Origin: Paracoccus sp. MBLB3053 | Lineage (GTDB): Bacteria > Pseudomonadota > Alphaproteobacteria > Rhodobacterales > Rhodobacteraceae | Direction of reading: 5' to 3' | NCBI RefSeq assembly: GCF_031822435.1 | Contig: NZ_JAVQLW010000002.1 | Location: 186,001-250,000, forward strand | Length of the DNA: 64,000 nucleotides | In this document: positions 30,701-59,676 of the stretch, piece after piece | Layout of the letters: every line of letters starts with the position of its first letter | Position numbering within the stretch: position 1 is the stretch's first letter | The notes under the pieces: generated by a model | What the model was told of the DNA's origin: nothing | The model's input: the letters and a program-made list of their open reading frames with translations, nothing else | Databases searched by the model: none | Program-made: the position numbers and the translations under genes

Positions 30701-31429
30701 ATGACCAACGGGATTAAAGAGATCGACGGCCGGATTGAGGTAGGCAAACTGGTCGAATTCGCGGAAGGTGCGGACTGCCTAATCTCTCACCCTGATGTTT
30801 CCGGTGTCCGAAGCTTGACAGTCAAACGGTTGCTCGATTTGTCGGGTGCCTGTTTCATTCTGATGCTTTTCGGGCCGCTCATGCTATTGATTGCCGGATT
30901 GATCTGGGCGCGTGATGGCGGGCCGGTGCTGTTTGGGCATGAACGGATCGGCTATAACGGCAGGCGCTTCAGATGCTTGAAATACCGTACCATGGTGCGA
31001 AATTCGGAGGAGGTGCTGCAGTCCCTTCTGAGAAGGGACCCAGTCACCCGAGAGCATTGGTACACGCATTTCAAGCTTCAGGATGATCCTCGCATCATTC
31101 CGGGGATCGGCAAGCTCTTGCGTCTAAGTAGCCTTGATGAGTTGCCACAACTCTTCAACGTCCTTCGCGGCGAAATGAGCCTGGTCGGGCCTCGCCCTGT
31201 CACCGGTGAGGAGTTGGTGAAATACGGGGTGCACAGGAACCACTATCTTTCTGTCAAGCCGGGCTTGACCGGGCCTTGGCAGATTGGAGGACGATCGACC
31301 ACGACCTACGAAGGCAGGGTTGCCCTTGACGTCTGGTATGTGGAAAATGCCGGAAACTGGACGGATATCGTCATTCTGTTGCGCACCGCTCGCTATTTCT
31401 TGACTGGCGCTCTGAGCGGAGCGCGATAG
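30701..31429 (+). CDS. exoY: Undecaprenyl-phosphate sugar-1-phosphate transferase (ExoY-like)
   Basis: Priming enzyme for repeat-unit assembly: transfers hexose-1-phosphate from a nucleotide sugar to undecaprenyl phosphate. 242 residues, with one membrane helix (about 45-68) and the complete bacterial sugar-transferase domain: KRLLDLSGA, GPVLFGHERIGYNGR, FRCLKYRTM, LRLSSLDELPQLFNVLRGEMSLVGPRP (in family, the catalytic acidic and PRP regions) and LSVKPGLTGPWQ. The short form lacks the large N-terminal region of WbaP, so it resembles ExoY. The ATG at 30701 is preferred over a GTG nine bases earlier. First gene of the polysaccharide locus. Confidence 0.93.
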   Translation: MTNGIKEIDGRIEVGKLVEFAEGADCLISHPDVSGVRSLTVKRLLDLSGACFILMLFGPLMLLIAGLIWARDGGPVLFGHERIGYNGRRFRCLKYRTMVRNSEEVLQSLLRRDPVTREHWYTHFKLQDDPRIIPGIGKLLRLSSLDELPQLFNVLRGEMSLVGPRPVTGEELVKYGVHRNHYLSVKPGLTGPWQIGGRSTTTYEGRVALDVWYVENAGNWTDIVILLRTARYFLTGALSGAR

Positions 31430-31449
31430 GCCGTGCTTGTCGTCTTTTT

Positions 31450-31659
31450 CTAAGCTGAGCGCTTGGCGCTCTGCTTCTCCGACGCTCGGCGGCGTCCGCG
31501 GACCCGCACCCAGATTGCTGCCCAGATCAGGGTGAGCGGGGCCGCGAACAACCAGGTCGTCAACAACCATATCCAGAAACCGACACCGGTGGCGAAGGCA
31601 AAAGCTGCTGTCAGCAAGGCCGAGATGATGAAGGGAGGGACGAAGAGCCACAGCGACAT
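31450..31659 (-). CDS. Small two-helix membrane protein
   Basis: A 69-residue protein with two hydrophobic helices separated by a short loop and a very basic C-terminus (RVRGRRRASEKQSAKR). It converges on the sugar transferase, with 20 bases between the ends. An AGGAATAA sequence upstream of the ATG at 31659 is a possible ribosome-binding site. No function is recognised. Confidence 0.5.
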   Translation of the reverse strand: MSLWLFVPPFIISALLTAAFAFATGVGFWIWLLTTWLFAAPLTLIWAAIWVRVRGRRRASEKQSAKRSA

Positions 31660-32583
31660 AGAGGTCGTTATTCCTATTTCTCTGAGTCGGCGAGCGATGT
31701 TTCAAGAAATGCCTGAAGCAAAGCGGTCTTAACCTGCGATGCAGCCAGCTGCCTGAAATTGGTTCCCAAACTCGACAAGATGAACATTCGGCAGATATTG
31801 CCGAAAGCGTAGAACAGTTCAACAAAAGAGATTGCGTCGGTTTGGATCAGATTCTTCCCATCTTTACAACGCTTGCTCAAAATTCCGGACGGACAGCCCA
31901 TCCGTTACCTTTTCCAAGGCGCGACTATAGTCGGCCTGGGGTCTCATCCGTGATGGCCGTCCTGTGCCCGGTTCGTCCTGACGGACATCCCGACACGCGC
32001 ATTTGCCCCGAGAACTGGTGACGGGGACGTCCTGCGCAGAGATATGATGGGAATGCGGGGACGGACTTTGCCCTGCGCCGGAAGCTTGATCTTTCGAACC
32101 GTCCTCATCGGATTTCCCGGTCCGCAGGTTCAGAATGCCTGCACAGATTTTGGCGAAACAATCTGTCGGCCGTTTGTCGAGGGGCTATGCGGCGTCGTTC
32201 ATCCGGCCGGACTGATGCTGACCGCCGTGCAAGTCACTGATCAAAGACACCCTGACATCCGCGGCGCCGTCCAGTCGGGAATGACAAGGCAGGCCGGCGG
32301 GGTGGCGAAGGACAGGTTGCGACTTTCGGCGCACTTCGCCGTTGCACATGATACCCGCAGCCGAAAAGAAGTAATGCCAGCGTATAGAGCGACCCGTTCA
32401 TCGTCTGACTGCGAGATTCCCTCTCAGAACGACGCTTTCCTCCCCCGCATACGCGCGTGGCCCTGAGACATACCAACGGTTCGGATCGCTCCTTGATCAC
32501 AGAATAACCTTCGCGTCGGCGTCGTGTGGGAACGGGGCGCTCGTCTGACCGTCTAAAACATTAGAATTGAACTGGATTGCTGC
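31660..32583. other. Gene-poor gap inside the polysaccharide locus
   Basis: About 920 bases between two minus-strand genes. A 75-codon minus-strand frame (31674-31901) ends 15 bases before the small membrane-protein gene and could be its partner, but it lacks a clear ribosome-binding site. Other frames (for example 32044-32466 plus, and a 32234-32401 minus frame starting with a lipobox-like LLLFGCG) match no family I know. It may contain decayed genes. Confidence 0.45.
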
Positions 32584-34317
32584 TTACCTCGCTTCCCGCA
32601 GGACAATGCGATATTCAGTGACATCGCCACTCGAATTGCCTCCTGGTCCCACGACGATGTCAAGCCGCGCGCCGCGCCACATCGGAATCTCGGGCAGGGC
32701 GACGCTATAGCGATCCCGCACAGATGATTTGTGTTCAAGTACCTTGCCGTTCAGCAGAACCGTTATCTCGACACCGTCCTGGCTCCGTTCGGAAGGATTC
32801 CAGCTTGCCTCGAGGGCCACGACACGCTTGGTGTCGGCGACGTAACGATGGACAATTTCGACCGGATTCGTGTCAGACCCACCCGGAACCAGGGAATCCG
32901 CCAGCAACCGTGCCGGTCGATAGTGGCGGTTGCCCAGATAAGGCGTCCACGGAGTACCCTGCGCTTCCTGGCCTGGCATGGTCCGAAGCGGGACGCGGCG
33001 ATCTTTATGCCGCGCGAACCTCTGGAAAGGATCGGCAGATGCGAACGTTTCGTCTTCCGTCGGGTAGGAAAACTGATGATAGCTATCAGCCAGGATGCCG
33101 GTTGGCTCGAGCTTGACATCTTCCCCCAAAACGATGCGCTCGTCCGCGGTGAGTATGATCGGATCGGATTCCGAGAGTTCCAGCAGGACCTTGTCGAGCG
33201 TCACACCCAGCGCATTCGTCGCCTCGATTCCATCGGCAATCCAGACGGCCCGTCGCGCGCCCCAGATCACGAGGGTGTCTTCGCCAAACAGGCACGCGAT
33301 GGTGAACGGATCCGGACTGACATCCCGGACGGGGCGACCGGCCATCATCTTCTGCACACGCGCAAAGACGCGGCCCGTGTCGGTCGGGCGGCCGGAGTGG
33401 GTGTCTATAAGTGGCTCAAGACCGTCGCCACGGTCATGCAGCGGATACCAGGCGGCGCGCTCGACCCCGGAAAGGGCCATGGCGCAATACATGCGCATGA
33501 GGAAACTAGGTGCCTCGGCACGGCCCTTTTCGCCGAATTCCGTCACCTGGAGCGGGAGATCACTTGCCTGAGGATGACGGCGCAGCACGGCAATCTGGCG
33601 GGCAAGCTGCTCGGGCGGTGTGGTATAGGGGTGCAGAACAAGTGCATCCATGTAATCGGCCCCGCCCAGATCCAGCAATGGCCATATATATCCGCCAGGG
33701 ATCGAATGCGCTGCGCCGCCCAAAACAGCCACTTTCGGATGGCTGGCCTTCACCCGCAGATAGACCGCCTTTAGCAGCTCGAAATGCTGGGACGCACGCT
33801 CTTCGCGTGAGACGTCTTTGACGGGCCCTGTCACGAAATTCTGGCCATTGAACTCGTTGCCGACTTCCACAGCACTTATTGCGGGATGAGCGTCAAGCGC
33901 GGCCTCGGCAAACCTTGCGAAGGCAGCTCGTCCCTCAGGCGTGAAGGGGGTTTCACCTGCGTCGTGCAGTTCATTGCCCCAGTTGAGCGTCAGGCTCATC
34001 CGTCCGCCGGAAGCCGCAATCTCTTCGGGATAGATGGTCGTGAGCTTGTCAAAGCTATAGCTTTCACTTTCCGACTCCACCTTGCTCCAATAGATGATGT
34101 CGCGGAAATCGGTCACTCCAAGATCGATGGCACGACGCAAGAGATCGGGCTCCCAGCCATGTCCAAAATTCGACGCGGCCGCCAAGCTGGGGCCAGCACC
34201 CATTCCAGACGCCATTGGCAAGGGCGACTTCGTATCGGTCGTGTTCGCGATTGCCGCTGAGGCACTGGCGGCCAGAATGAATGACCCGACAAATATCGCT
34301 GAAATTCTTTTGTCCAC
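32584..34317 (-). CDS. Secreted clan GH-A glycoside hydrolase
   Basis: Predicted exported TIM-barrel glycosidase of about 577 residues. A signal peptide (start DKRISAIFVGSFILA, end near AIANT) is best served by the GTG at 34317; an ATG at 34362 would extend it by 15 residues. The barrel shows clan GH-A hallmarks: an EVGNEFNGQ segment with the acid/base Glu after Asn, and LQVTEFGEKG with the likely nucleophile Glu. It recalls GH39-like enzymes. The last ~150 residues form a beta-rich accessory domain. Placed next to sulfotransferase and polymerase genes, it may trim or release the polysaccharide. Confidence 0.82.
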   Translation of the reverse strand: MDKRISAIFVGSFILAASASAAIANTTDTKSPLPMASGMGAGPSLAAASNFGHGWEPDLLRRAIDLGVTDFRDIIYWSKVESESESYSFDKLTTIYPEEIAASGGRMSLTLNWGNELHDAGETPFTPEGRAAFARFAEAALDAHPAISAVEVGNEFNGQNFVTGPVKDVSREERASQHFELLKAVYLRVKASHPKVAVLGGAAHSIPGGYIWPLLDLGGADYMDALVLHPYTTPPEQLARQIAVLRRHPQASDLPLQVTEFGEKGRAEAPSFLMRMYCAMALSGVERAAWYPLHDRGDGLEPLIDTHSGRPTDTGRVFARVQKMMAGRPVRDVSPDPFTIACLFGEDTLVIWGARRAVWIADGIEATNALGVTLDKVLLELSESDPIILTADERIVLGEDVKLEPTGILADSYHQFSYPTEDETFASADPFQRFARHKDRRVPLRTMPGQEAQGTPWTPYLGNRHYRPARLLADSLVPGGSDTNPVEIVHRYVADTKRVVALEASWNPSERSQDGVEITVLLNGKVLEHKSSVRDRYSVALPEIPMWRGARLDIVVGPGGNSSGDVTEYRIVLREAR

Positions 34318-34575
34318 GACTTCGCACCCCACCGCTGCCGTGCCGAAGAGATTCGCAAGCATGATCCTGGCGGTGCTGGTCAGTCAGCGTGGCGGGGACC
34401 AAACAAGCACAGAAAAAAGTTGCCGTGGGCAGGGCTCGTCTGTCAAGGGGCGCGGCGCCGCCATGAACCTTGTCGAGATCTTGATTGCCCAGATGATCCG
34501 CAAACACCATCGGTCCGCCGACAGCCTAGGCGCAATCTTGACGATCGCCCCACAGATTGGACCCAATCCCAGATC

Positions 34576-35496
34576 CTAGCGTTCTGGCCGAAGTCGGTTT
34601 CGAAACTTCGGCGTGCGAAGGACCTGGATCGGGCTTGATGACAACCGCTCGTAAAGCCTCATATCCTCGGCGAAAAGCTCGGCAACGATCTCGGCTCCGG
34701 CACATTCAGGCTTTCCCAGGGAAGACGCATTGCTCCGCCCGATGATGCGTTCCTGTGGCAGGCAGGCGTGCAGCATCGCCTGAACCGTGTCCATCCGTTC
34801 CATGGAAAACAGGGCATCCACCAGCAGACGGCCATGTGAATCCGACACAAAAGCACATTGTTCCCGAAAATGATGCCACTTCGTCACGACGCGGCGGAAG
34901 GAGGGGTCTTCCAGGCGGGCCACGAAGGTTTCGAAATCGGCGATATCCGCCAGGTGATTGTCCCGGAAGCGAATATCGGCGGCAAAGGTCGGCATGGTCT
35001 TCAGATAGGCAAAGGCTGACCGGAAACGGGCGTAAGGATCGCGTAGGATTGCGAAGCTGAAAGCGCGTTCCGAAAGTTGTCTGGGCAAAGCTCCGCGTAA
35101 GAATTGCATGGAATGATGTCCGAGGGTGCCGCCATAAAGGCATTCGGTCACCGAGGAGCCGGCATTTTTCGGGACATGAACAAAGATCAGGCCTGTCGGG
35201 CCCATCGCCGAAGTCAGGCTGCGCGAGCGTCGTTCACGAAACCAGCCCTTGGTGAGCCTTATGGGTCGGGCAAAGGGGCGCGCGCCGGGGATCTTCCAGA
35301 TCGGATGGCCAGAGGGCGTCAATCCGGGCGGCGCGCCCTTGGGTTCGAACCGCTCGTCATCGTCAATGTCGGTCGCCTCACGTTGGCTGGCTAGCCACGC
35401 TGCCGCCCGGACGGCGGGTGACAGATACATGCCGCTCATCGAACATGCGACCATGGATTGCCGTCCCTGCCTTGCTGTATCACGATGGCTTTTCAT
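34576..35496 (-). CDS. Sulfotransferase (family 2-like)
   Basis: PAPS-dependent sulfotransferase of about 306 residues. The 5'-phosphosulfate loop VHVPKNAGSS and the 3'-phosphate motif LRDPYARFRSAFAY are both intact, in the arrangement of carbohydrate (Sulfotransfer_2-type) enzymes. The start is uncertain: ATG codons at 35529, 35496 and 35454 are in frame, and the first two overlap the upstream sulfotransferase gene. No signal or membrane segment, so it probably acts on cytoplasmic lipid-linked repeat units. Last gene of the wzy-wzx-sulfotransferase run. Confidence 0.85.
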   Translation of the reverse strand: MKSHRDTARQGRQSMVACSMSGMYLSPAVRAAAWLASQREATDIDDDERFEPKGAPPGLTPSGHPIWKIPGARPFARPIRLTKGWFRERRSRSLTSAMGPTGLIFVHVPKNAGSSVTECLYGGTLGHHSMQFLRGALPRQLSERAFSFAILRDPYARFRSAFAYLKTMPTFAADIRFRDNHLADIADFETFVARLEDPSFRRVVTKWHHFREQCAFVSDSHGRLLVDALFSMERMDTVQAMLHACLPQERIIGRSNASSLGKPECAGAEIVAELFAEDMRLYERLSSSPIQVLRTPKFRNRLRPER

Positions 35497-36442
35497 CGCC
35501 AAACCATCGAGTGCATAGGCAGGTGCCATAGGTTTGGTCGAACTCCCTGATGATAGGAAGAAAATGGTCCCGAAGCGCTGCCCTGACCTCGTTCTCTTCC
35601 TCGGCGCGGCGCGGAACCTCCTTCACTGTTGCCTTTCGCAGGGCCCGCAGGACGCCGCGTGGCAGGCGCGCGCGCAATCTATTCCAGGTGGGCGTGTCGC
35701 GCAGCGTCGTGACCAAGGGAAAACGCGCCATTCGCGTGGTGGCCGCCGTCGTGTTGCGTTCGGCCAGATCGGCCGGATCCAGCCTGTGCTCCGGCAGCCC
35801 CAGGGCGCGAAACAGCCCCGCGAGGGTGGTCTCTGGCGCGGCGCGGAGTTCTTCCGAAGCGACAATGTGAATATTGTCGAAGTGAGGCCGGTAGCGGTCC
35901 AGCTGTCGCTTGTAGTCGCTCGTGCAGAGATAGATGCTGTCGGGATCGGCAACAGCTTCGCTGAGCGACCGGTTTTCCTTCAGGATTTTTCGATCCTGCC
36001 AGTAATGGCTGATCGTCCTGTCGACGGGATTTCGAACCAAGTAGATGATCTGCGCGTGCGGCGAGGCAGCCGCAATCCGCTCGGGCACATTGGTGAAAAT
36101 CGGATAGCTCGAATAGGTGGGGCTGGCTTCCATTCGGTATCGGGTGGGTGGGCCCGCAAAGAGGTCGAGATAGGCGTCGAGGTCCCTCGCCTCGGGGCGC
36201 ATCGATTCCATGAGCTGCCGAGAGCGCAGTTCCGAAAGTTCTACAAAGAACGACGGCTCCTTCTCGCGCGATCCGGTGATCTCGGGATGGGCGCTCAAGT
36301 ACGAGTGCAGGGAGGTCGTGCCGCATTTCCCGGCTCCGATGAGAAACAGGTTCGGCATCAGGGAAATCTGCCTGTCGCTCAGATCTTGCCGGCGAATTGC
36401 AAAGCCATCGCGCGCGGCTTGAACGGACAGAACGCCCTTCAT
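35480..36442 (-). CDS. Sulfotransferase (heparan N-sulfotransferase-like)
   Basis: PAPS-dependent sulfotransferase of 320 residues with IGAGKCGTTSLHSYLSAHP (5'-phosphosulfate loop), KEPSFF, and YLVRNPVDRTISHYW (3'-phosphate motif), the pattern of heparan-sulfate and related bacterial enzymes. The ATG at 36442 overlaps the flippase stop in an ATGA junction, which fixes the start; the frame is open far upstream inside the flippase gene. Its 3' end overlaps the next sulfotransferase gene. Direct coupling to the flippase strongly suggests that repeat units are sulfated before export. Confidence 0.9.
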   Translation of the reverse strand: MKGVLSVQAARDGFAIRRQDLSDRQISLMPNLFLIGAGKCGTTSLHSYLSAHPEITGSREKEPSFFVELSELRSRQLMESMRPEARDLDAYLDLFAGPPTRYRMEASPTYSSYPIFTNVPERIAAASPHAQIIYLVRNPVDRTISHYWQDRKILKENRSLSEAVADPDSIYLCTSDYKRQLDRYRPHFDNIHIVASEELRAAPETTLAGLFRALGLPEHRLDPADLAERNTTAATTRMARFPLVTTLRDTPTWNRLRARLPRGVLRALRKATVKEVPRRAEEENEVRAALRDHFLPIIREFDQTYGTCLCTRWFGDEKPS

Positions 36443-37959
36443 CTTGCGCCAACCCTCGCCTTGCGCAACAGGGCGCGCAACTGCACCATGATCTTCGCCT
36501 CGACTCCGTCCGGCAGGCCCGAACTGTACCACAGCAGAAAAATCGTTCCAAAATAGACAATGCTGACGGCAAGGCACGCTCCGGCAAGCGCAACAGCAAG
36601 CGTCAGCCCGGTCAAACCATGCAGTACGACCGTGGCCGGCCACGCGATAAGGGCGGCCGGGACGGTCGCCGAGAGAATGCGCCAAGAGCCCGCCAGCTGC
36701 TTCGTAAGCGAGATCTTGGTGATGCGACGAATATAGAACATCGCCACAGCGGCGACGAGCACCGCCGAAATGCCGATGCCGAAGATGACCCCCTCGATCC
36801 CGGCGACGAACCAGCCCACCGCAACCGCCGGTATGCGCAAGAGCAGGGAGCAGACAGAGACGATGAACACATAGTCGGTCCGACCGACCGCCATTGCCAG
36901 CGGACGGAACGGGATGCGAAACAGTGCCGGAACCTGCGCCAGGGCCAGCCATTTCAACAGCGGCACCACTGACAGCCAGTTCTCTCCGAAGGCCAACAGG
37001 ACTAGGGGCTCTGCAAAGAAAAAGAGGATAAGATAGGCCGGGATCGCCGAGATCAAGATGGCGTTATCCGCAATCACATAGCCCCGTTGCAGCCTTTCGC
37101 GTTCAGATCCGGCGAGGACGAAGCCAGAGATCAGAGGATTGGTCACCGAGGTTCGGATGGATTGTTCGATGATCGAGGTCAGGTTGCTCGCGACGCTATA
37201 GAGACCCAGGGTTGCAGGGGCGACGAAGTGGCCAAGGAAGAGCCGATCAAACTGCCAGGATGCCGCAACGATGATTTGCGACGGAAACAGCCAGCCCAGG
37301 AAATCCCAGAAATAACGGATCTCGCTCAGGCACAGGGCGGGCCGGTAGGGGGCATAAAGATATGAGATCGGAAGGCCGACGATCCGACTGACAATGGGCG
37401 ACACGACCAAAGCCCAATAGCTGCCCGTCGCGAGGCCGAAGCCGATAGCGGCAGCGACGCCCAGACATTTGCCCACAATCTCTATCACGAAGGTTTGGCG
37501 ATATTGCAGCGTCTTGAACAGGCGGGCCATGTTCGGGCTCTGAAGCCCCCGCACGACGGTCGAGAGTGAGAGAACGATCAGCAGCGACGACAGTCGTGGA
37601 TCACCGTAGAAGCGGGCTATGGGAATGGCCAGCAAGCCGATCAATGCCAATATGATCAGCCCGCGGATAAGACCAAGGGTGAAGGCCGTGTCCAGATGGC
37701 GCTTTTCGACATGCTCGAGCCGCACGAGCGGCGTCACCATTGGCAGGTTGGTCACCACATCGAGGATCGCGACGACCGATGCGGCGATCGCGACCAGACC
37801 GAAATCTGCGGGAGAAAGCAGCCGCGTCAGAACAATGAGAAGGATGAAGTCGGAAAACCGTGCGGCAATGCGCGCGATGAGAATCCATGCCGTCCCGACA
37901 GCGGTTCTGCCGATCAGGCGTCGCGCACCATCGGGTGCTTCATTGGCAAGGCTTGTCAT
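36439..37959 (-). CDS. wzx: Polysaccharide flippase (Wzx-type)
   Basis: MOP-superfamily flippase moving lipid-linked repeat units across the inner membrane. 506 residues with about 12-14 hydrophobic helices and the family's N-terminal GTAWILIARIAARFSDFILLIVLTR-type start (positions about 22-46) followed by LSPADFGLVAIA. The true start is the ATG at 37959, in an ATGA overlap with the upstream gene; the open frame continues to 38364 only by chance. Downstream it is coupled to a sulfotransferase gene. Confidence 0.92.
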   Translation of the reverse strand: MTSLANEAPDGARRLIGRTAVGTAWILIARIAARFSDFILLIVLTRLLSPADFGLVAIAASVVAILDVVTNLPMVTPLVRLEHVEKRHLDTAFTLGLIRGLIILALIGLLAIPIARFYGDPRLSSLLIVLSLSTVVRGLQSPNMARLFKTLQYRQTFVIEIVGKCLGVAAAIGFGLATGSYWALVVSPIVSRIVGLPISYLYAPYRPALCLSEIRYFWDFLGWLFPSQIIVAASWQFDRLFLGHFVAPATLGLYSVASNLTSIIEQSIRTSVTNPLISGFVLAGSERERLQRGYVIADNAILISAIPAYLILFFFAEPLVLLAFGENWLSVVPLLKWLALAQVPALFRIPFRPLAMAVGRTDYVFIVSVCSLLLRIPAVAVGWFVAGIEGVIFGIGISAVLVAAVAMFYIRRITKISLTKQLAGSWRILSATVPAALIAWPATVVLHGLTGLTLAVALAGACLAVSIVYFGTIFLLWYSSGLPDGVEAKIMVQLRALLRKARVGAR

Positions 37960-38873
37960 CGACTGCGATTCTCCACATTTCCGAGGAGGGCGACGTCGGG
38001 AGGATGCTCGACACGGATATTGCGCGGCGCCCGAGTCATCATATGCCGCAGATGCGTTATGACAAAACGAAGCCTGCCCGAAACAGGTCGCTGCTGTGGG
38101 ACCGCGGCCAGCAACCCGAGGGCGCTGATGAACAAACGGGCACGATTTTCGACTATGCGCCCAGAAGGTGTGCGCGCCGAAAAGGGAACGCAGCTTAGCC
38201 AGGGCACGCCATAGCGCGACAAAGCAGTCGCAATGTCGTCCTCGTATCGACGTTCGCCGGTGAAGCCGTTGGCGGCCTTGTTGCCTCCGACGGGCTCGGT
38301 GTGGCGAATCGCGACCGCATCCAGCACTGCAAAGTTCGTCGCGCCAGGGCCCAGCAGGTTGCACCAGACGAGATCGATCCCGCTTTCCAGTCCCTGCCGG
38401 TAAAGGGGCAAGACCCGCGCGAGCGCGTCACGACGAAAGATAGGGCACATCATTTCGATGAAATTGACATACCGCAGAAGCCAGGCGGGTTGCTGCAACA
38501 GACCGGCATAGGTGAAATGGCTGTCATGGCTCAGGGCAGGCTGCGCAAGCAAAAGATCATGCGCGGCGCAAAGCCCGAAGGCGCGGTTGAGATCTTCTGC
38601 GGTCGTGTCGATATCCTCGTCCATGAGGCAGATATAATCGTAGTTCGACCACAGGCTTTTGCGCTCGGACAGGAAGGCGCCGTAGCCTTCTACTTTCCGG
38701 CCAGGTCGCTGTTCCTGGATGATACCCGGCCCATCGACCGGGACTGCCGTATCCGAATAGGCGCTGAGCACCGTATCGAACTGGCATTGCGCCGGATCAT
38801 CGAGCCAACGGTTATGCAGGCTTTTGGGTCCGATACGGGTCACGACCAGGAAACGCTTGTCAGCTGGCGCCAT
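37956..38873 (-). CDS. DUF707-like glycosyltransferase-type protein
   Basis: A 305-residue soluble protein resembling DUF707 proteins, which look like GT-A glycosyltransferases. It has a YDYICLMDEDIDTT segment (a DxD-like acidic cluster after a hydrophobic strand), LLLAQPALSHDSHFT and EMMCPIFRRDALARVLP, all matching the family layout. It overlaps the polymerase gene by 14 bases and the flippase start by four, so it is in the same operon and probably adds or caps a sugar. Donor and acceptor are unknown. Confidence 0.75.
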   Translation of the reverse strand: MAPADKRFLVVTRIGPKSLHNRWLDDPAQCQFDTVLSAYSDTAVPVDGPGIIQEQRPGRKVEGYGAFLSERKSLWSNYDYICLMDEDIDTTAEDLNRAFGLCAAHDLLLAQPALSHDSHFTYAGLLQQPAWLLRYVNFIEMMCPIFRRDALARVLPLYRQGLESGIDLVWCNLLGPGATNFAVLDAVAIRHTEPVGGNKAANGFTGERRYEDDIATALSRYGVPWLSCVPFSARTPSGRIVENRARLFISALGLLAAVPQQRPVSGRLRFVITHLRHMMTRAPRNIRVEHPPDVALLGNVENRSR

Positions 38874-41304: not shown

Positions 41305-41572
41305 GCTCCCGCCCTGACCCTCGACAATGCCCGGCCCGATCTTCAACTGGCCCCGCGTGCTCATCATCATAGGCGCCCCGGGACAGATCGCCGAACCCCA
41401 TCCGCTATTCATGCCTGTGCAGCCTGCCCAGGAACGGGTCTGACCGAGGTCGGGCGCGGAACCCCAGATTGGAAGACATGTGCCAGGTCACACGGTGAAA
41501 TGGCGCGCCCACGCGTTCGAAGTGTATGCGATCGCCGGATGGAGGCAGCATCATAGCCCGGCCCACAGCCCG

Positions 41573-45718: not shown

Positions 45719-45835
45719 CAAACCAAAACACTAGGAAACCGGGGAGCAAGTTTACAAAAAATCGGCGTTCCAATAAATGATTCTCAAGGGATACGAATAG
45801 ATATCGCATCCAGACTTTAAATGACAATCAGTTCA

Positions 45836-45870: not shown

Positions 45871-45945
45871 GTTTCGCATGCCACTGAGCGAATTTTGCTA
45901 AATCAACCTCGCGCCTTGTCGTCTCTGTCTTCCATTTGCTATTTT

Positions 45946-51588: not shown

Positions 51589-53871
51589 ATGAACACTCAA
51601 GCACCGCCACCGCGGCTGTCCGAGAGTGTCAGGGACACTCCGCCGGTTGGCAGCGACGACGGGGACATCATAAACCTGTTCGATCTCCTTCGGAGCATCT
51701 GGCGCCGAAAATGGATCATTGTGGGCTCGGCGATATTTCTCGGCATGCTCGTCGCGATTGTCGTCAGTTTCGTAACGCCGCGCTATAGCGCCATCGCGAG
51801 GATCATGCTTAATCCGCGCGAAACACGGGTCGTTACCTCGCAAGAGGTCGTCTCGGATCTCGATCTCAGCAATCCCGTGATCGAAAGCGAGGTGGCCCTG
51901 ATCCGGTCGAGCGTCCTTCTTGAATCCACAGTTCGCGAGATCGGTGTCGAGAACCTGATGGAGTTCGATCCGCGAAGAATGTCAGAGCAAGGCTGGACGG
52001 TTCGTCTGAATAGAGCCATCGAACGCGTGACGATGCTGCTGGAAGGGGAGGAGGGGGCGACAAAGGTGGCAACGCCGTTGCCCGATGACAGTCAGGTTGA
52101 GCAGGCAGATCCCGATGTTCGGCCAGTTGGCCCCACCGACAACCTCTACCGTCGGATAGTGGGGCAGATGCGCGGCTATCTCACCATCGAGCAACTGGGC
52201 AATTCCTACGTCATCTCCATTTCAGCGAGCGCCGAGGATCCGCAGGTTGCGGCGCTGCTCGTCAACACCATAGCCGAGCGCTATATCGCCACCCAGCTTG
52301 AGGAACGTATCGAAGGAACTCGCCGCGCGACGCGGTGGCTTCAGACCCGCGTTGCCGATCTGCGCGAGCAGGTCGCAACGGCTGAAGCGGCGATCGAGGC
52401 CCGCAGGGCCGAGAAGCTGACCGCCGACGGTGGAGGCGTTGAGACCGCCTCGCAGCAACTTGGGGCCATGTCGGTGCAGCTCTCGGCAGCGCGTGCCGAC
52501 TACGCCGAGGCACAGGCGCGCTACGATCAGATCCGGCAACTCGTCGAAACGGAAGGTTTCACTGCGGCGGCCGATGTGCTTTCCTCTACGCTGGTTCTCA
52601 ATCTGCGCGAGAACCACGCCGCGCTGCTGCGCCATCAGGCGGATCTGGCCAGCCGCTATGGCCCCGAACATCCCGACCGAATGCGCGTCGCGGCCGAAAT
52701 TGCCCGTGCAGAGGAAGGTCTTGCCGCCGAGATTGGCAACCTCATAAAGGGGCTCGCGAGAGAGGTCGAGGTGGCCGGCATTCGTCAGAGATCAGTGGCT
52801 GCCGATGTGCTGGCGCTTGAGGAACGTGTCTCGTCGATCTCCGGCACTTCCACCGACTTGCGAGATCTCGAACGCGAGGCCAAGGCACTGAGCACGGTCT
52901 ACGAAAACATGCTGTCGCGCCTGAAGGAGACCCGCGCCCATGAAGCCCTGGCGCAGGCCGAAGCCAAGGTCATCGAATATGCACTTCCGCCCGGGGCGCC
53001 ATCCTATCCGCGCTCTAAGCTCTTGATCTCGGCGGCTGTGGTCGCTGGGGCCGGTCTGGGGCTCGGGCTGGTCTTGGTGATGGAGCTGAGTTCGAACACG
53101 TTCCATTCGACCCCTGAGGTCTTGCGCGAAACCCGCTTGCCGGTTCTCGCGGCACTGCCGCGCAGCCGGCGCCGTGATGGGCCAGACGCGCTGAGAGGGC
53201 TGATCGCCGCCGACGATGGCGTTTACGGCGAGCGCATCCGCCAACTCCGAACGGCATTGATCTTTGGCGTCGGTGAACCGCCGCGCAGCGTCAACATCAC
53301 CTCATCGCTGCCGGGCGAGGGCAAGACAGACACCACGCTGGCCTTGGCACATATGAACGCGCTCATGGGCCGCCGGGTGATCGTGGTTGACTGCGATTTC
53401 CGTCGCGCAGCGCTTTGCAAGGCCTTCGGCTGGCGGCCCGCCAAGGATTTCGCGGCCGTGCTGCGGGACGAGGCTTCCCTTGATGATGCCATCTTGTCGG
53501 AAGCGACGGTTGGATTCGACGTGCTGCCCGTTGCCAAACCCGTGGCCAACGTCACGGATATGCTTCACCCGGCACGGTTCCGCGCCATCGTGGACAAACT
53601 GTCGGAACGATACGATCTCGTCCTCGTCGATGCACCGAGCGTGCTGCACACCGCGGATGCATTGGTCGTCGCGCGCTCGGCAGAGACACTTATCTACCTG
53701 GTAAAATGGGACAGCACGCCGAAGAAGGTCGTTCGTCAGGGTCTTGGCGCTCTTGCCGAGTTCGGGATTGCGCCACAGGGTATCGTGCTGACCCAGGTGA
53801 ACCGCAGACGCATAGGCGAATTTCACCAGGCATCCGATCCCGTCGCGGGTCGCAGCGAGGCAAGGGCATGA
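51589..53871 (+). CDS. wzc: Polysaccharide co-polymerase with bacterial tyrosine-kinase domain (Wzc-like)
   Basis: Inner-membrane protein of 760 residues controlling chain length and export. Two membrane helices (about 43-65 and 478-500) flank a periplasmic Wzz domain with coiled coils (about 230-450). The cytoplasmic BY-kinase domain has Walker A PGEGKT (576-580 region), Walker A' VIVVDCD and Walker B LVLVDAPS. The C-terminal tail ends GRSEARA and has no tyrosine cluster, so the usual autophosphorylation switch appears to be missing. Ribosome-binding site CAGG before the ATG at 51589; its stop overlaps the export gene start (ATGA). Confidence 0.92.
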   Translation: MNTQAPPPRLSESVRDTPPVGSDDGDIINLFDLLRSIWRRKWIIVGSAIFLGMLVAIVVSFVTPRYSAIARIMLNPRETRVVTSQEVVSDLDLSNPVIESEVALIRSSVLLESTVREIGVENLMEFDPRRMSEQGWTVRLNRAIERVTMLLEGEEGATKVATPLPDDSQVEQADPDVRPVGPTDNLYRRIVGQMRGYLTIEQLGNSYVISISASAEDPQVAALLVNTIAERYIATQLEERIEGTRRATRWLQTRVADLREQVATAEAAIEARRAEKLTADGGGVETASQQLGAMSVQLSAARADYAEAQARYDQIRQLVETEGFTAAADVLSSTLVLNLRENHAALLRHQADLASRYGPEHPDRMRVAAEIARAEEGLAAEIGNLIKGLAREVEVAGIRQRSVAADVLALEERVSSISGTSTDLRDLEREAKALSTVYENMLSRLKETRAHEALAQAEAKVIEYALPPGAPSYPRSKLLISAAVVAGAGLGLGLVLVMELSSNTFHSTPEVLRETRLPVLAALPRSRRRDGPDALRGLIAADDGVYGERIRQLRTALIFGVGEPPRSVNITSSLPGEGKTDTTLALAHMNALMGRRVIVVDCDFRRAALCKAFGWRPAKDFAAVLRDEASLDDAILSEATVGFDVLPVAKPVANVTDMLHPARFRAIVDKLSERYDLVLVDAPSVLHTADALVVARSAETLIYLVKWDSTPKKVVRQGLGALAEFGIAPQGIVLTQVNRRRIGEFHQASDPVAGRSEARA

Positions 53872-55145
53872 AACGTCTGGGTCGTTTCGTGACATCATTC
53901 ACCCGTTTTCGAGTGGTGGCTGCGCTGCTGCTCGTTTTCGGCGCCGCCTGTTCAGCAGCGGCAGAGCCCTATCGGCTTGTGCCCGGTGACAGGCTCGATG
54001 TGGCGGTCCTGGGCGAGCCGGAACGCTGGGAAGTTCAGATCGATCTGGACGGTGCGCTCAGATTGCCGACCCTCGGTCGGGTTTCGGCCGACGGCATGAC
54101 GCTTGACGAGGCCGAGGCCGCGCTTTCCGCGGCGATGCGGGAGACGGGCCTTTACGTTTCGCCGCAGGTTGCCGTGTCAGTTGCGACCTATGCCCCTGTT
54201 CTGGTCACCGGTGCGGTCCGCGCCCCCGGGCTCTTTGATTTCACACCGGCGCTGACGGCAAACGCAGCAACAGCCATGGCCGGTGGCATCGCGCTGACCG
54301 GTCTCGACGGCACCGCGCTTTCTCTCGAGGCAACGCAGTTTACGGGCCAGCTGCGCATCATCGAGACCGATATCCAGAGCACGCTGGTGCGGATCGCGAG
54401 GGTCGAGGCGCAGCTCGAGGATCGAGACGATTTCACATTCGATCCCGGGCCACGCTTTTCTGCGGTAAAATTCGATGCGGAACTCATCGAACATCTCATG
54501 TCGCGGGAGCGGGCCATCCTGACCGAGGAACGGCAGGCGGCGGCGGAGTTGGGTCGGCTGCGGCAAATCGAGTTAGACAATGTCGAGAAGCAGATCGACA
54601 TCCTGATGGAACGAAGCAAGGTCCAGGACGATCTGATCGCCTTGCAGCAAGAGGAACGCGACGCCGCCGACGCGCTTGACGCTCGTGGGCTCAGGACGCG
54701 CTCGGATATGGCTCGGGTCGACCGCATGGAGGCCGATCTACGCGCCCAGGTCCTCGATATCGAAGCTGCCTTGTCACAGGCCCGAACGCGCCGGGCCGAT
54801 ATCGCCAGCACCATCGCGCAGGCCGGCATCGATCGGAGGATGGCATTTCTCGAGGATTCTGCCAGCCTGCGCACCGAACTTGAGCGGCAGATGCACAATC
54901 GCCGGACCGTGCTGCAGAAAAGCTTCATCCTGGGCGATCCCTTGGCCATCGCGCTTTCCGGGGAAGCCGGGCCAACGATCACGCACACCATACACCGGCG
55001 CCGAGGAGGCTCGATCAAGACCATCGTAGCTGGTCCGGAAGACGTGATGATGCCCGGAGATACGCTTGTGGTCGAAGTAGAGGTTCCCCCCAAGGCGGCG
55101 CAGACACAAGCCGACACGGTCGATCTGGCGGGGACCGACGGATGA
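53868..55145 (+). CDS. wza: Polysaccharide export protein (Wza/ExoF type)
   Basis: Outer-membrane polysaccharide export (OPX) protein of 425 residues. A signal peptide with a possible lipobox (FGAAC) precedes the Poly_export domain (YRLVPGDRLDVAVLGEPE, then RLPTLGRVSADGMTLDEAEAAL) and an SLBB-like strand region (VLVTGAVRAPGLFDF). A long coiled coil (about 175-330) follows, then a C-terminal region with GPEDVMMPGDTLVV. The coiled coil resembles ExoF-type periplasm-spanning members rather than Escherichia Wza. The start overlaps the wzc stop, and its stop overlaps the next start. Confidence 0.9.
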   Translation: MKRLGRFVTSFTRFRVVAALLLVFGAACSAAAEPYRLVPGDRLDVAVLGEPERWEVQIDLDGALRLPTLGRVSADGMTLDEAEAALSAAMRETGLYVSPQVAVSVATYAPVLVTGAVRAPGLFDFTPALTANAATAMAGGIALTGLDGTALSLEATQFTGQLRIIETDIQSTLVRIARVEAQLEDRDDFTFDPGPRFSAVKFDAELIEHLMSRERAILTEERQAAAELGRLRQIELDNVEKQIDILMERSKVQDDLIALQQEERDAADALDARGLRTRSDMARVDRMEADLRAQVLDIEAALSQARTRRADIASTIAQAGIDRRMAFLEDSASLRTELERQMHNRRTVLQKSFILGDPLAIALSGEAGPTITHTIHRRRGGSIKTIVAGPEDVMMPGDTLVVEVEVPPKAAQTQADTVDLAGTDG

Positions 55146-56521
55146 TGCAGTTCACGTCCTTTCCCACCCGACTGTCCGGCAGAGCCGCAAGAACGCGACA
55201 GGCGGGAAGGGGCCAGAACCGTGCCTTGCAGATGAGAGACAATTCGGAAACGTCCTTCGACGCGAACAGCGTTTCGACGACGCCTTCTTCCCCGAGCGAG
55301 ACTGCGCGACAATCCGATGGTGAAAGCGCCCCTACGGTGCTTGTCTACTACGGCGATACCCTGTCGAGCGCGTCGAATGGCAGCCAGGTTCGAACGCTGG
55401 GCCTGCTTGCGTTTCTTTGTGGGCGATATGATGACGTCGTGCTTTACCGCTATGGCGAATCAGCCGGGAATGGTTGGCCGGCCGAGGAAACCGCCGCGCT
55501 GACGTCGCGCTTTCCGCAGTTGCGCCTTGTTTCCGATCCGGACGGCATTGGGCTGCGGCTTTTCGACAAGCTGAAGAAGTTCGTCGTTCTTTCCTGGCCG
55601 GGTCTTGCGCGACACGCCTATCGCTGGGCAATTCCGGGCCGTGCCCCCAATTTCGCGGCGATCCGCGACCGGAACAGCAACATGCTGTACGTCGTGAATT
55701 ATGTCGACAGCCTCGCCCGGTTGAACGGCATCGACGAGAACAGAACGGTAGTGGAGACCCATGACCTGCGCTATTTCCGGCGGGTGAAGGGAACCAGTGC
55801 CTCTCTCATCTCATGGAAACATCTTCTTAACTTGCGCTATGAAATTGCGGCACTGGCCAGCGTGCGGGCCCTTGTCGCGATCACGGGCAATGAGGCCTAT
55901 TTCTATCGCAACATGCTGCCGTCGTCGAAGGTCTATTATGTCCCCGACTACCAGCCCGTCGACGCAATTCCACATTCACCGGAAGAACGGCTTGACTACG
56001 ATCTTCTGTTTGCCGGCTCGGGAAACGTGATCAATCGCGACGGGCTTCTGCGCCTGTTCGAAAGCCATGGCCCACGGCTTCGAAGCCTTCGGATCGCGCT
56101 CTGCGGTCTGATCTGCGACCGACCCGAAATCAGGGAACTGGCGACGCTCAATCCGAACCTGATTCTCTTGGGATTTCTGTCCGCAGAGGAGCTGGAAAAT
56201 ACCTATGCAAGATCGCGCGCCTGCCTTTCCCCGACCCATGGAACGGGCCTGAACATCAAGCTCGTCGAAGCACTGCGCCACCGTAAGCCGGTTTTTGCCT
56301 CGGACGATTCGCGTGCCGGATTGACCGCCGGATACGAGCGCTGCGTATTCCCCCTGGACCCTGATCTGATGACATCACTGCTGAGAGATCCCGGTCGGCT
56401 TCAGGCAGCGTCCGAGGCGGCGGCGAACTATTATCATCACTTTTCCAGAACTGGAGATCTTCCGGCTTTGGGCGAAGCTCTTGACCAGATCCTTTCGGCC
56501 GATTGCAGGCCCGAGGGTTAG
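55142..56521 (+). CDS. GT-B glycosyltransferase
   Basis: A 459-residue glycosyltransferase. The first ~65 residues are low-complexity and probably disordered. Then come VLVYYGDTLSSASNGSQVRTL (the N-terminal nucleotide-fold start), VVETHDLRYFRR, ITGNEAYFYRNMLPSSKVYYVPDY, LLFAGSGNVINRDGL and a C-terminal HGTGLNIKLVEALRHRKPVFAS donor-site segment. The ATG at 55142 overlaps the wza stop (ATGA). Sugar specificity cannot be assigned. Role in the repeat unit follows from its operon position. Confidence 0.87.
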   Translation: MMQFTSFPTRLSGRAARTRQAGRGQNRALQMRDNSETSFDANSVSTTPSSPSETARQSDGESAPTVLVYYGDTLSSASNGSQVRTLGLLAFLCGRYDDVVLYRYGESAGNGWPAEETAALTSRFPQLRLVSDPDGIGLRLFDKLKKFVVLSWPGLARHAYRWAIPGRAPNFAAIRDRNSNMLYVVNYVDSLARLNGIDENRTVVETHDLRYFRRVKGTSASLISWKHLLNLRYEIAALASVRALVAITGNEAYFYRNMLPSSKVYYVPDYQPVDAIPHSPEERLDYDLLFAGSGNVINRDGLLRLFESHGPRLRSLRIALCGLICDRPEIRELATLNPNLILLGFLSAEELENTYARSRACLSPTHGTGLNIKLVEALRHRKPVFASDDSRAGLTAGYERCVFPLDPDLMTSLLRDPGRLQAASEAAANYYHHFSRTGDLPALGEALDQILSADCRPEG

Positions 56522-56595
56522 TCGAAGGGCCGATCGCGCATGGCAGCCGAGCGGTTTTCCGGTTTCAATGCAGCAAGACCTCGGAGATTGTGAAT

Positions 56596-57564
56596 ATGAC
56601 CACGTCCATGAGTGCCGAGCAAACGACCGAACATTTGTCGGGCTACCAAAACCGCGATTGGAAGATCGTCGATTACCACATGTACGAACATGGCCGATCC
56701 GGATTGTCGTTCCGGGGTCCTGCGCCGGCATTGGTGCCGGGCGAATATGCCACATGCCTCGGTGCCGCTCAGACGCTCGGCTGCTTCTGCAGGACGCCAT
56801 TTCCGGAGATACTGCATCAAAAGCTGAATATCGAGTTCGTCAATTTCGGGTATGGCGGTGCCGGGCCGCGCTTTTACCTGCGCCACCCGGAATTGCTCGA
56901 GGTGGTCAATCGGGGTCGCTTTGCCATCGTCCAAGTGATGTCTGGGCGGAGCGAGGATAACCGTCTTTTCCAGAGCAACGGGTTGGAATACCTGGTTGAA
57001 CGCGCAAGCGGCAGGCGGCTCTCGGCTGATGAGGCCTACCGGCGACTTTTGGAACAGCACTCTCTAGACAGCATCCCGGCGCCGGCCGCTCGTGTCTTGC
57101 GCATGTTCCATGCGCCGGAAGAATTGCGCGCGGTACTGCGCGAAACCCGCGACAATTGGCTCGCGAGCTACCAGGCTCTCTTCGCTGAAATCACGGTGCC
57201 GATCATTCTGCTGTGGTTTTCGAAACGAAGCCCGGGCCTGCATCGCGGCAAGAAGCTCGTTTGGTGGTGGCAGCGCTACGACAACGTCCACGCCATGTTT
57301 GGCAAGTTCCCGCAATTGGTCAATTCACAGATGATGCGCGTGATAGCACCCGAGGCTGCGCATTACGTGGAATGCGTTTCATCGCGGGGCTCACCGCAAC
57401 GGCTGATCGACCGCTTCACAGGCGAACCGACGACCATCAACACGTCAGATGATCGGCCTGACTTCACTGGAGTCTGGTCCTACAACGCCTATTATCCGTC
57501 GCCGGAAATGCACGAGGACGCAGCGGACCTACTGGAGCCCGTCTGTCGCAAGCTGCTCTCCTAG
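56596..57564 (+). CDS. DUF6473-like protein
   Basis: A 322-residue protein resembling DUF6473, a family of unknown function seen in Rhodobacteraceae. It contains FRGPAPALVPGEYATCLGAAQTLG and PFPEILHQKLNIEFVNFGYGGAGPRFYL; the GAAQT and FGYGGAG blocks recall the serine and Gly/Asn blocks of SGNH hydrolases. The ATG at 56596 is preferred; the frame is open back to 56503, overlapping the previous gene. It lies between a glycosyltransferase and a sulfotransferase gene, so a role in decorating or editing the polysaccharide is likely but unproven. Confidence 0.7.
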   Translation: MTTSMSAEQTTEHLSGYQNRDWKIVDYHMYEHGRSGLSFRGPAPALVPGEYATCLGAAQTLGCFCRTPFPEILHQKLNIEFVNFGYGGAGPRFYLRHPELLEVVNRGRFAIVQVMSGRSEDNRLFQSNGLEYLVERASGRRLSADEAYRRLLEQHSLDSIPAPAARVLRMFHAPEELRAVLRETRDNWLASYQALFAEITVPIILLWFSKRSPGLHRGKKLVWWWQRYDNVHAMFGKFPQLVNSQMMRVIAPEAAHYVECVSSRGSPQRLIDRFTGEPTTINTSDDRPDFTGVWSYNAYYPSPEMHEDAADLLEPVCRKLLS

Positions 57565-57575
57565 GTCGCGGGACA

Positions 57576-58520
57576 GTGCAGGTCGATCGCCCGATACTGG
57601 TCACCGGCTGCCCGCGCAGCGGCACAACCTGGACAGGCAATGTCATTGGCGCCGCGCGCGAGGTATTCCTGATCTACGAACCGTTCAATGACGATGTCGG
57701 TGCCCGCCTTCGCCTGCCAGAACGCTTCATGCGCCTGACCGACGGCAACAGCGCCCCGCACCGCCAGGAAATCGACGATCTGATCGCGCTTGGTCGCTTG
57801 TCGCGACGCAGCGCGCTGGCCATGCGCGGAATTGCAGAACGCTGGCGCCCCGGAGAAAAACGCTACACGCCAGGCTGGCTCGCGTTCCGGCGACTTCACA
57901 GCCAGGGGCAAGATTTCTTTGGCCCCCGAAGGGTCTGCATCAAGGATCCGATCGCCTTCTACTCAAGCGAATGGCTGGCTGACACCTATGATGCGCAGGT
58001 GATCGTGATGGTGCGCCATCCCTGCAGTGTCATTGCCAGCTATCTTTCGCTTGGGTGGGAAAGTGAAGTCGAAGCCATGCTTCCACATCCGGTACCCGAA
58101 GGCTTTGCCGGCCTTCGCGACGAGATCGAGGCGCGCAACGGCCCGGTGCAAGACAGGCTCACCGATCTGATCCTGCAATGGAAGCTTTTCACGGCCGAGA
58201 CGCTGGACCTTCAGCGTCGGCGTCCGGACTGGACCTATATTCTGCATGATGACCTTTGCCTGCGACCATTGCACTATTTCGAGGCGATCTTCGCGAAGCT
58301 TGGGCTTTCGTTCACCTCGGACATAGCTGACAAGGTTCGGCGGGAAAGCTCCGGCACAAAAAATGCGGCCAACGGCAAGCCCGTCCAGCATCGCCATGAA
58401 AGGGACAGCAGATCCGTGATCGACGCTTGGCAGGAAAAGCTGCCAGGCGAGATCGCCGAGCGGATCCTTAGGGAAACGGCGGAACTTTGGGAGGAGGCGC
58501 AGCGACGCCTTCTGACCTAG
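57576..58520 (+). CDS. Sulfotransferase
   Basis: PAPS-dependent sulfotransferase of 314 residues with the 5'-phosphosulfate loop TGCPRSGTTWTGNVI, IKDPIAFYSSEWL, and the 3'-phosphate motif VMVRHPCSVIASYL, all intact. It begins with GTG at 57576, eleven bases after the DUF6473-like gene. Its 3' end overlaps the convergent acyltransferase gene by 53 bases. Cytoplasmic; expected to sulfate lipid-linked repeat units or a sugar precursor. Confidence 0.9.
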   Translation: MQVDRPILVTGCPRSGTTWTGNVIGAAREVFLIYEPFNDDVGARLRLPERFMRLTDGNSAPHRQEIDDLIALGRLSRRSALAMRGIAERWRPGEKRYTPGWLAFRRLHSQGQDFFGPRRVCIKDPIAFYSSEWLADTYDAQVIVMVRHPCSVIASYLSLGWESEVEAMLPHPVPEGFAGLRDEIEARNGPVQDRLTDLILQWKLFTAETLDLQRRRPDWTYILHDDLCLRPLHYFEAIFAKLGLSFTSDIADKVRRESSGTKNAANGKPVQHRHERDSRSVIDAWQEKLPGEIAERILRETAELWEEAQRRLLT

Positions 58521-59676
58521 CCCTCTGCCGAAATCCCCCAAGCCCAATGCCGGCCCCACGCGAGACCCGCTTCAGCCAGGTCACGACCGGGCGCTCCAGC
58601 AGGACATAGACGAAGGACCCTGCGGTTAGACCGGCAATGATGTAGATCAGCGCGATCCCGACCAGCACCGCCGCCGGGGCGGACTGGGTGTCGACAAAGA
58701 TGCCGATCACCTTGCCGGTGAACTGGAAGGCGAGGAGGTGGAAAATATAGATCGAATAGCTCGCCGCGCCCATGAACTGCATCCAGCCTGCACTCAGTTT
58801 GCGCCCGGAACGTTCGAGCATGAGGGCGCCCGAGACGATCAGGACGGCAGGTATCCCCGCGCTCATCGCGCGCCACGGATCAAGCCCGCTTCCGACCGGG
58901 GTGATCGCTGTTCCCAGGACAAGCCCACCGAACCCTGTCGCCAGCAAGGCAATGCCGGTGGCCGCCGATTTCTGCGATGCGCGCTGAAGATGCGTATAGA
59001 GGTATCCCAGGAAGCATCCCGCCAGGAATTCGAGGATGATGGGATTGGTATACGATGCCGCGAGTGGCGTCGCATTGGTGAAATCGGCGAATAGCCCGAT
59101 GGCGACCAGGCCAAGAAACAGCGCCGTGATCAGCGAGAGCGAAACCATGTGAGAGCGGAAAAACAGCGTCAGTCCGAAGACCAGATAAAAGAACATTTCG
59201 TAGTTCAGCGTCCATCCGACATTCAGAAGCGGCGCGAAGGCGCCATCTGCCCTGACATGGGGGATGAAAAACAGCGTGGTGAGAAGGTCTGATGTATCGA
59301 ATGCCATGAGACCGTTGGGGCGAAGTCCGGCGGCAAAAAGCAGGACGATCACGGCGATCGCTGCCCAGTAGACCGGTACGATCCTGATGATCCTGTCGAT
59401 CCAGAACTCGACCACCGTCCTGGAAAAGCCGCGCGTGGTGAAGATCATTATGAATCCGGAAATGACGAAGAAGATATCGACCCCTGCGGCGAGAAAATCA
59501 GTCCCACCCTGCCAGCCCAGCCGCTCCAACGGGGGTTTGCTGGCATGGTAGAGAACGACCATCAGCGCGCCCATGAAGCGCAGGACCTGAATGTTGTCCA
59601 CCCGTTCTCGCAGGGGCGGCGCCCCCAGGTTCAAGACCGGCACGGAATGTCGGCGGGAGTTTCTGTCATTGAGCAT
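58468..59676 (-). CDS. Membrane acyltransferase (acyltransferase 3 family)
   Basis: OafA/YrhL-type inner-membrane acyltransferase of 402 residues with about ten helices. The catalytic N-terminal region NIQVLRFMGALMVVLYHASKP has the conserved histidine, and the paired motifs FFVISGFIM and FWIDRIIRIVPVYW follow. Typical substrates are extracellular sugars, acetylated or succinylated. The ATG at 59676 is used; longer starts upstream add a cysteine-rich stretch unlike the family. It is the right-hand end of the polysaccharide locus. Confidence 0.9.
   Translation of the reverse strand: MLNDRNSRRHSVPVLNLGAPPLRERVDNIQVLRFMGALMVVLYHASKPPLERLGWQGGTDFLAAGVDIFFVISGFIMIFTTRGFSRTVVEFWIDRIIRIVPVYWAAIAVIVLLFAAGLRPNGLMAFDTSDLLTTLFFIPHVRADGAFAPLLNVGWTLNYEMFFYLVFGLTLFFRSHMVSLSLITALFLGLVAIGLFADFTNATPLAASYTNPIILEFLAGCFLGYLYTHLQRASQKSAATGIALLATGFGGLVLGTAITPVGSGLDPWRAMSAGIPAVLIVSGALMLERSGRKLSAGWMQFMGAASYSIYIFHLLAFQFTGKVIGIFVDTQSAPAAVLVGIALIYIIAGLTAGSFVYVLLERPVVTWLKRVSRGAGIGLGGFRQRARSEGVAAPPPKVPPFP

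Follow-up and report, generated by a model that had tools for sequence, protein, structure and literature searches.

An exopolysaccharide locus with four sulfotransferase genes in Paracoccus sp. MBLB3053 probably encodes the synthesis of a sulfated polymer

The window analysed here is a 64,000-nucleotide stretch of DNA from Paracoccus sp. MBLB3053 (contig NZ_JAVQLW010000002.1, positions 186,001 to 250,000), which belongs to the 531,790 bp contig C2 of a 4.6 Mb genome in eight contigs. An exopolysaccharide (EPS) locus of about 29 kb occupies positions 30692-59676 of the window on both strands and extends from the gene of a priming transferase to that of an acyltransferase. The priming transferase, the Wzx flippase, a Wzy-like polymerase, the polysaccharide co-polymerase (PCP) Wzc, and the outer-membrane polysaccharide export (OPX) protein Wza are encoded together, which identifies the locus as Wzx/Wzy-dependent. 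The combination of this export gene set with four sulfotransferases indicates that the bacterium probably makes a sulfated polymer. The priming enzyme is an undecaprenyl-phosphate sugar phosphotransferase of the WbaP/EPS type (30692-31429, plus strand; PF02397, E 2.5e-57), which scores 289 bits against TIGR03022, under the cut-off of 403. The flippase (36439-37959, minus strand) matches PF13440 (E 8.4e-56, scanned as the longer open reading frame (ORF) 36439-38364). Wzc, a co-polymerase and tyrosine autokinase (51589-53871, plus strand), matches PF02706, PF13807, and PF13614, and Wza (53868-55145, plus strand) matches PF02563 (E 2.8e-18, in a longer ORF scanned from 53706). The protein encoded at 38860-40293 (minus strand) has no Pfam match even at E 5 and no useful similarity to a Phaeobacter O-antigen ligase (E 1.2). 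It is called Wzy-like here for its topology, with nine hydrophobic windows, and for its conserved position and recurrence in related loci. An earlier note on this DNA had proposed the same five functions together with an acyltransferase. Pfam finds these proteins near where the note had put them, and topology and recurrence point to Wzy.

The four sulfotransferases differ in how readily they are recognized. Two are clear 3'-phosphoadenosine-5'-phosphosulfate (PAPS) sulfotransferases. ST3a (35480-36442, minus strand; Sulfotransfer_3/1) matches PF13469 with 63.8 bits at a cut-off of 27 and PF00685 with 44 bits, and carries the motifs GAGKCGTTS and RNPVDRTIS. Its relatives in the PDB by sequence are 3rnl (E 4.2e-17) and heparan sulfate NDST/3-OST entries (E 9e-7 to 3.6e-5). 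ST3b (57576-58520, plus strand; Sulfotransfer_3) matches PF13469 with 48.6 bits at the same cut-off and carries the motifs GCPRSGTTW and RHPCSVIAS; its score against PF00685 is 19.8 bits, below the cut-off of 22. The third protein, ST2 (34576-35529, minus strand; start possibly at 35496), is a marginal Sulfotransfer_2 match of the heparan sulfate 2-O/6-O type, which hidden Markov model (HMM), both motifs, and fold together place among PAPS sulfotransferases. Its nearest relative, P0122, belongs clearly to PF03567. A profile of ST2 retrieved from the PDB HS2ST/HS6ST entries alone (E 0.27-0.64), and heparan sulfate 6-O/2-O-sulfotransferases are the best match to the predicted fold of ST2. The fourth protein, STx (40465-41412, minus strand; start possibly at 41367), matches no model in Pfam (E up to 0.01) or NCBIfam (E up to 0.1), and its profile found nothing in the PDB by sequence. 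Folds were predicted for two of the four proteins, ST2 and STx. In the case of STx, the model is confident, and all 50 structures among the matches listed are sulfotransferases, so that the predicted fold and both motifs mark it as a sulfotransferase. The possibility that STx is not a sulfotransferase, raised by the missing HMM match, was rejected on this predicted fold. The earlier note had counted four sulfotransferase-family genes and had named an HMM placement outside PAPS-dependent sulfotransferases as evidence to the contrary. The count holds, with two clear members and one marginal member by Pfam and a fourth by fold. None of the proteins is placed outside the PAPS sulfotransferases; STx is placed by no HMM and has the fold.

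In all four proteins, an R-x7-S motif follows a P-loop-like motif, and both are fully or almost fully conserved in the two families that were aligned. All four reading frames are open, and pairwise comparison of the proteins gave no useful similarity. None of them has a hydrophobic segment, which fits cytosolic enzymes that use the cytosolic PAPS pool and would act before the repeat unit is flipped by Wzx.

The order of genes on the minus strand is STx, Wzy, a DUF707-like protein (37956-38873; PF05212, 27.2 bits at a cut-off of 24.1), which we take to be a possible glycosyltransferase, Wzx, ST3a, ST2, and a hydrolase. Consecutive genes overlap by 14 bp (Wzy/DUF707), 4 bp (DUF707/Wzx), 4 bp (Wzx/ST3a), and 17 or 50 bp, depending on the start (ST3a/ST2). 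The ATGA overlap of flippase and sulfotransferase described in the earlier note is real, with the end of Wzx at 36439 and the start of ST3a at 36442; the ORF start at 36952 is unlikely as a gene start. On the plus strand, Wzc/Wza and Wza/glycosyltransferase overlap by 4 bp each, and a gap of 11 bp separates ST3b from the gene of a DUF6473 protein, a possible modifying enzyme (56503-57564; PF20078, E 8.7e-33). Through the overlaps and the 11-bp gap, ST3a, ST2, and ST3b are closely linked to adjacent genes of the locus. STx lies 171 bp before Wzy. The families and queries applied here (PF03567 not run genome-wide as a family) revealed nine sulfotransferase-like places in the genome, two of them below cut-off, and four of the nine fall in the 29-kb locus. 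Under independent placement, the chance that at least four of 8-12 would do so is 1.1e-7 to 7.5e-7.

PAPS could be supplied from elsewhere in the genome. There are two adenosine-5'-phosphosulfate (APS) kinases, both on contigs other than that of the locus. One is part of a fused CysNC protein, encoded beside a CysD-like protein on contig C3 (L163:9767-12626), and the other of a Sat-like/APS-kinase fusion on contig C1; the names CysD and Sat are our assumption from sequence features. The cysD-cysNC pair and the Sat/APS-kinase-like fusion amount to a doubled PAPS route.

The EPS core includes a secreted protein resembling glycoside hydrolases, encoded at 32584-34362 (minus strand). It has a hydrophobic N-terminus and no Pfam match of its own; PF11790 is found in seven of the 120 proteins of its family among the matches listed, the present protein included. 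This protein is the secreted glycosidase of the earlier note. The hydrolase occurs in 19 of 394 genomes of the Rhodobacteraceae, including that of MBLB3053 (E up to 1e-40). In the stretches around it, taken from all 18 relatives and in some cases ending at contig ends, the other core proteins recur: Wzc in 16, Wzy in 15, and the priming transferase in 12 of the 18. Three of these relatives (G299, G253, and G323) have sulfotransferases supported by Pfam, a count from which two weak profile matches (E 0.025 and 0.028) were left out. Genome G110, included for its ST3a relative, has two sulfotransferases. Two of the six plasmid records with a hydrolase relative were looked at, and both carry a homologous core locus. 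The locus of Salipiger sp. CCB-MM3 encodes one Sulfotransfer_3 protein. Its Wzc gene AYJ57_RS22615 is an EPS gene in a paper on Yangia, the passages of which do not mention the sulfotransferase (PMC7892980). On the Limimaricola variabilis plasmid, an ST2-type protein adjoins the flippase (PF03567, 21.5 bits at a cut-off of 22; profile E 1.1e-14). The Limimaricola core also includes a pyruvyl transferase and a sialate O-acetylesterase, which indicates that the modification set varies.

A search of 24 congeners with the Wzc of the window gave no match at E 1e-60 in any of them. ST2 as a query was found in two of 61 genomes, its own included, the other match being weak and containing an internal stop; a looser profile of the ST2 family finds members in 84 of the 394 family genomes. 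The distribution suggests that the EPS core is mobile, having been acquired and spread horizontally among Rhodobacteraceae, and that the sulfation module can be exchanged. The Wzx/Wzy export parts and the homologous Rhodobacteraceae loci with sulfotransferases support the earlier reading of the locus as one for a likely sulfated EPS.

STx belongs to a family found in 32 of 149 family genomes, its own included. Its surroundings were compared in the best 80 of 160 confirmed loci from named genomes, from which records of the MBLB3053 genome itself may be left out. In 75 of the 80, a relative of the family-2 glycosyltransferase L036:9006-9995 (PF13704, Glyco_tranf_2_4) lies within 600 bp, and in 66 of those 75 the glycosyltransferase is upstream and divergent. 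Neighbours of the GcpE, RodZ-like, and M20-peptidase types are common to 35-44 of the 80 loci. STx was rejected as a general marker of EPS loci, because no EPS export genes were found near 78 of the 80. The other two loci are EPS loci with further sulfotransferases: that of Rhodovulum robiginosum (L071) contains the STx relative, two Pfam-confirmed sulfotransferases, and a third, profile-only match, and that of Albibacillus kandeliae contains the STx relative and one further sulfotransferase. On plasmid pPGA2_239 of Phaeobacter inhibens, the gene of the STx relative follows that of Wzc at a distance of 7 bp; a second sulfotransferase, an O-antigen-ligase protein, and a glycoside hydrolase of family 16 (GH16) are encoded nearby. 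The glycosyltransferases and the hydrolase of pPGA2_239 differ from those of the present locus, and no flippase or Wza is annotated in the stretch compared, for which the gene table is incomplete. In a tree of 93 STx proteins, which has long branches in several entries and a bootstrap that has not settled, five EPS-labelled entries fall outside a 77-member, mostly chromosomal clade (support 99/95), as do eleven non-EPS entries. One STx-family protein, from a record titled Enemella evansiae, an actinomycete, groups deep within the roseobacter clade, and the record is probably misnamed. By predicted fold, the STx family is an uncatalogued sulfotransferase family, usually located beside a glycosyltransferase at a chromosomal site. 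It is possible that this pairing serves a widespread sulfated surface glycan.

It is likely that the EPS locus of the window was acquired horizontally and that four sulfotransferases add sulfate to the repeat unit of its product in the cytosol, before the unit is flipped. The priming transferase and about five glycosyltransferases would assemble the lipid-linked unit on the cytoplasmic side of the inner membrane. The four cytosolic PAPS-dependent sulfotransferases, which represent different subfamilies, would then sulfate it, presumably at different sugar positions, with PAPS from the CysD/CysNC and Sat-APS-kinase enzymes. Wzx would flip the sulfated unit, Wzy would polymerise it, and Wzc and Wza would export the product, which the acyltransferase and the secreted hydrolase may modify or trim. 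The sulfotransferases would be additions to an EPS core that is passed horizontally between members of the Rhodobacteraceae. What the analysis establishes are the genes, their families, the predicted folds, the overlaps, the recurrence, and the APS kinases; the activity of the enzymes, their acceptor, the order of the steps, the horizontal spread, and the sulfate in the product are inferred.

Several observations weigh against this proposal. ST2 barely exceeds the Pfam threshold, and three of its five fold models are poor. ST3b has no PDB relative by sequence, and the fold evidence covers other proteins. The APS kinases are encoded away from the locus, unlike those of the Vibrio and Cobetia clusters discussed below, which have PAPS genes inside. 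Of 37 genomes in the genus, that of MBLB3053 included, 11 have CysNC, which is therefore an accessory gene not specific to the EPS locus. No sulfotransferase was found in 15 of the 18 hydrolase stretches, some of them cut by contig ends, and no EPS export genes were found near 78 of the 80 STx loci. The STx proteins located in EPS loci do not form one clade, as three changes are forced on the tree.

A weaker form of the proposal, which has a substantial though minor share of the probability, is that the EPS is sulfated while at least one of the four genes is silent or encodes a protein that is inactive or that has, for instance, no more than the fold in common with sulfotransferases, which would result in fewer kinds of sulfate. 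The marginal Pfam score of ST2 and the placement of STx by fold and motifs, since a fold shows no function, are in keeping with it, as is the loss of xssE, one of two sulfotransferase genes for synechan, which according to passages of the report caused no substantial change in bloom formation or EPS accumulation (PMC8205485). The four open frames, the retention of both motifs, and the clear family membership of P0122 argue for the full set. It is improbable that the sulfotransferases act on another acceptor, such as lipopolysaccharide, a glycolipid, or a small molecule, and are co-located in a surface-glycan island with an EPS that has little or no sulfate: most STx relatives do lie away from EPS genes and beside the family-2 glycosyltransferase, most related core loci had no sulfotransferase found, and one sulfotransferase gene of Vibrio sp. 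KMM 8419 is assigned to O-antigen in a passage of its report (PMC11641403), but two of the four genes overlap the flippase gene or each other in the wzy-wzx run, a third follows DUF6473 by 11 bp in the wzc-wza run, and the Limimaricola ST2-type protein also adjoins a flippase. Cytosolic sulfation of the EPS repeat unit can be extended to a bolder picture, which is rather doubtful. The product would be a densely sulfated, glycosaminoglycan-like EPS with four sulfation positions, served by four unrelated-looking sulfotransferases, one of them uncatalogued, and STx with its glycosyltransferase in many roseobacter-type genomes would point to a second, widespread sulfated surface glycan, of which no description was found among the items listed in the searches.

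Sulfated polymers are best known from animals, algae, and cyanobacteria. Heparan sulfate sulfotransferases are animal Golgi enzymes that work on the finished chain. ST3a resembles their NDST/3-OST members by sequence, and ST2 resembles 6-OST/2-OST best by fold, whereas the present proteins are bacterial and have no membrane segment. According to passages of the respective reports, bacterial precedents for the comparison proposed in the earlier note exist. The xss cluster for synechan of Synechocystis sp. PCC 6803 is likewise of the Wzx/Wzy type, with glycosyltransferases, a co-polymerase, and sulfotransferases of distinct subfamilies. It is cyanobacterial, lies on a megaplasmid, and has two sulfotransferases, internal regulators, and no OPX gene, whereas the present alphaproteobacterial locus has four sulfotransferases and Wza (PMC8205485). 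The capsule clusters of Vibrio sp. KMM 8419 and Cobetia marina KMM 1449 also have sulfotransferases in a polysaccharide locus; they use ABC-transporter export instead of Wzx/Wzy, and their sulfate was established chemically (PMC11641403, PMC11766843). The wps-1 cluster of Actinoplanes missouriensis, an actinomycete, resembles the present locus in its Wzx/Wzy genes, its glycoside hydrolase, and the family diversity of its sulfotransferases, among them a heparan sulfate-type enzyme; it has two sulfotransferases, and sulfate is proposed (PMC13390465). The statement of the earlier note that sulfated polysaccharides are rarely genetically defined in bacteria needs correction, several such bacterial gene clusters having now been published (PMC8205485, PMC11641403, PMC11766843, PMC13390465). 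The sulfated-EPS locus type is thus already known, and the present locus, with four sulfotransferases compared with two each for synechan and wps-1 in the passages on them, is an unusually rich example.

A passage of the synechan report calls sulfated polysaccharides exclusively cyanobacterial (PMC8205485), with which passages of the Vibrio and Cobetia papers and of a review disagree (PMC11641403, PMC11766843, PMC4189415). The review includes a sulfated polysaccharide from a Paracoccus zeaxanthinifaciens subspecies, in a passage that names no genes (PMC4189415). For some orders of Alphaproteobacteria, passages on Shark Bay mat genomes describe sulfotransferase genes that occur with genes for glycosyltransferases and export (PMC9723792), and a sulfotransferase of Nautella sp. 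R11 is mentioned outside an EPS context in the passages of its report (PMC3230580). No sulfated-EPS gene cluster of Rhodobacterales was found among the items listed in the searches of open-access literature, judged by titles, starts of abstracts, and passages. Bacterial sulfated polysaccharides are wanted as replacements for animal heparin-like polymers, and few gene sets are defined. Gene sets of the type found here are candidates for the synthesis of such sulfated Paracoccus polymers. With a shared EPS core and a swappable sulfation module, the role of the sulfate would be testable by removing genes, and the STx family would be a new sulfotransferase family for annotators.

The remaining genes of the locus encode mainly glycosyltransferases. 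A family 2-like enzyme (45895-47004, plus strand) matches PF00535 weakly (E 0.013, below cut-off) and has relatives in EPS loci (up to 66%). Three GT4 enzymes are encoded on the plus strand at 47176-48249 (PF00534, E 2e-25), 50117-51226 (PF00534, E 4.7e-26; part of the EPS core, with relatives up to 71%), and 55142-56521 (PF13692, E 1.9e-10). A flavin adenine dinucleotide (FAD) oxidoreductase of the amine-oxidase type is encoded at 48564-49907 (plus strand; PF01593, E 5.4e-14 in a longer ORF), and the acyltransferase is a family 3 membrane protein (58468-59676, minus strand; PF01757, E 1.2e-27 in a longer ORF). A large protein of 1382 amino acids (41573-45721, minus strand) consists of a glucose/sorbosone dehydrogenase (GSDH) domain with PKD and cadherin/Big_9 repeats. 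It sits between STx and the family 2-like glycosyltransferase gene inside the locus and is not a glycosidase.

Neither a tRNA nor an Rfam match that reaches the gathering score was found in the window, and the plasmid collection contains no close DNA match to positions 30692-55600. Paracoccus plasmids are the best matches of the first 25 kb of the window and of the 20 kb that follow it on the right, with 74.7-81.5% identity over about 2-6 kb, whereas those of a stretch of contig C3 are Rhizobium plasmids; by record count, Paracoccus leads in one of these three comparisons. RepC matches occur on contigs C4 and C6 and none on C2, other replicon types not having been searched. The GC content of the locus is 0.591, compared with 0.635 in the left and 0.618 in the right flank. 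An ABC-transporter gene follows on the right and carbon-phosphorus (C-P) lyase-type genes lie past the window, neither of which looks part of the locus. The genome has eight PF00884 sulfatase matches, one of them short with an internal stop.

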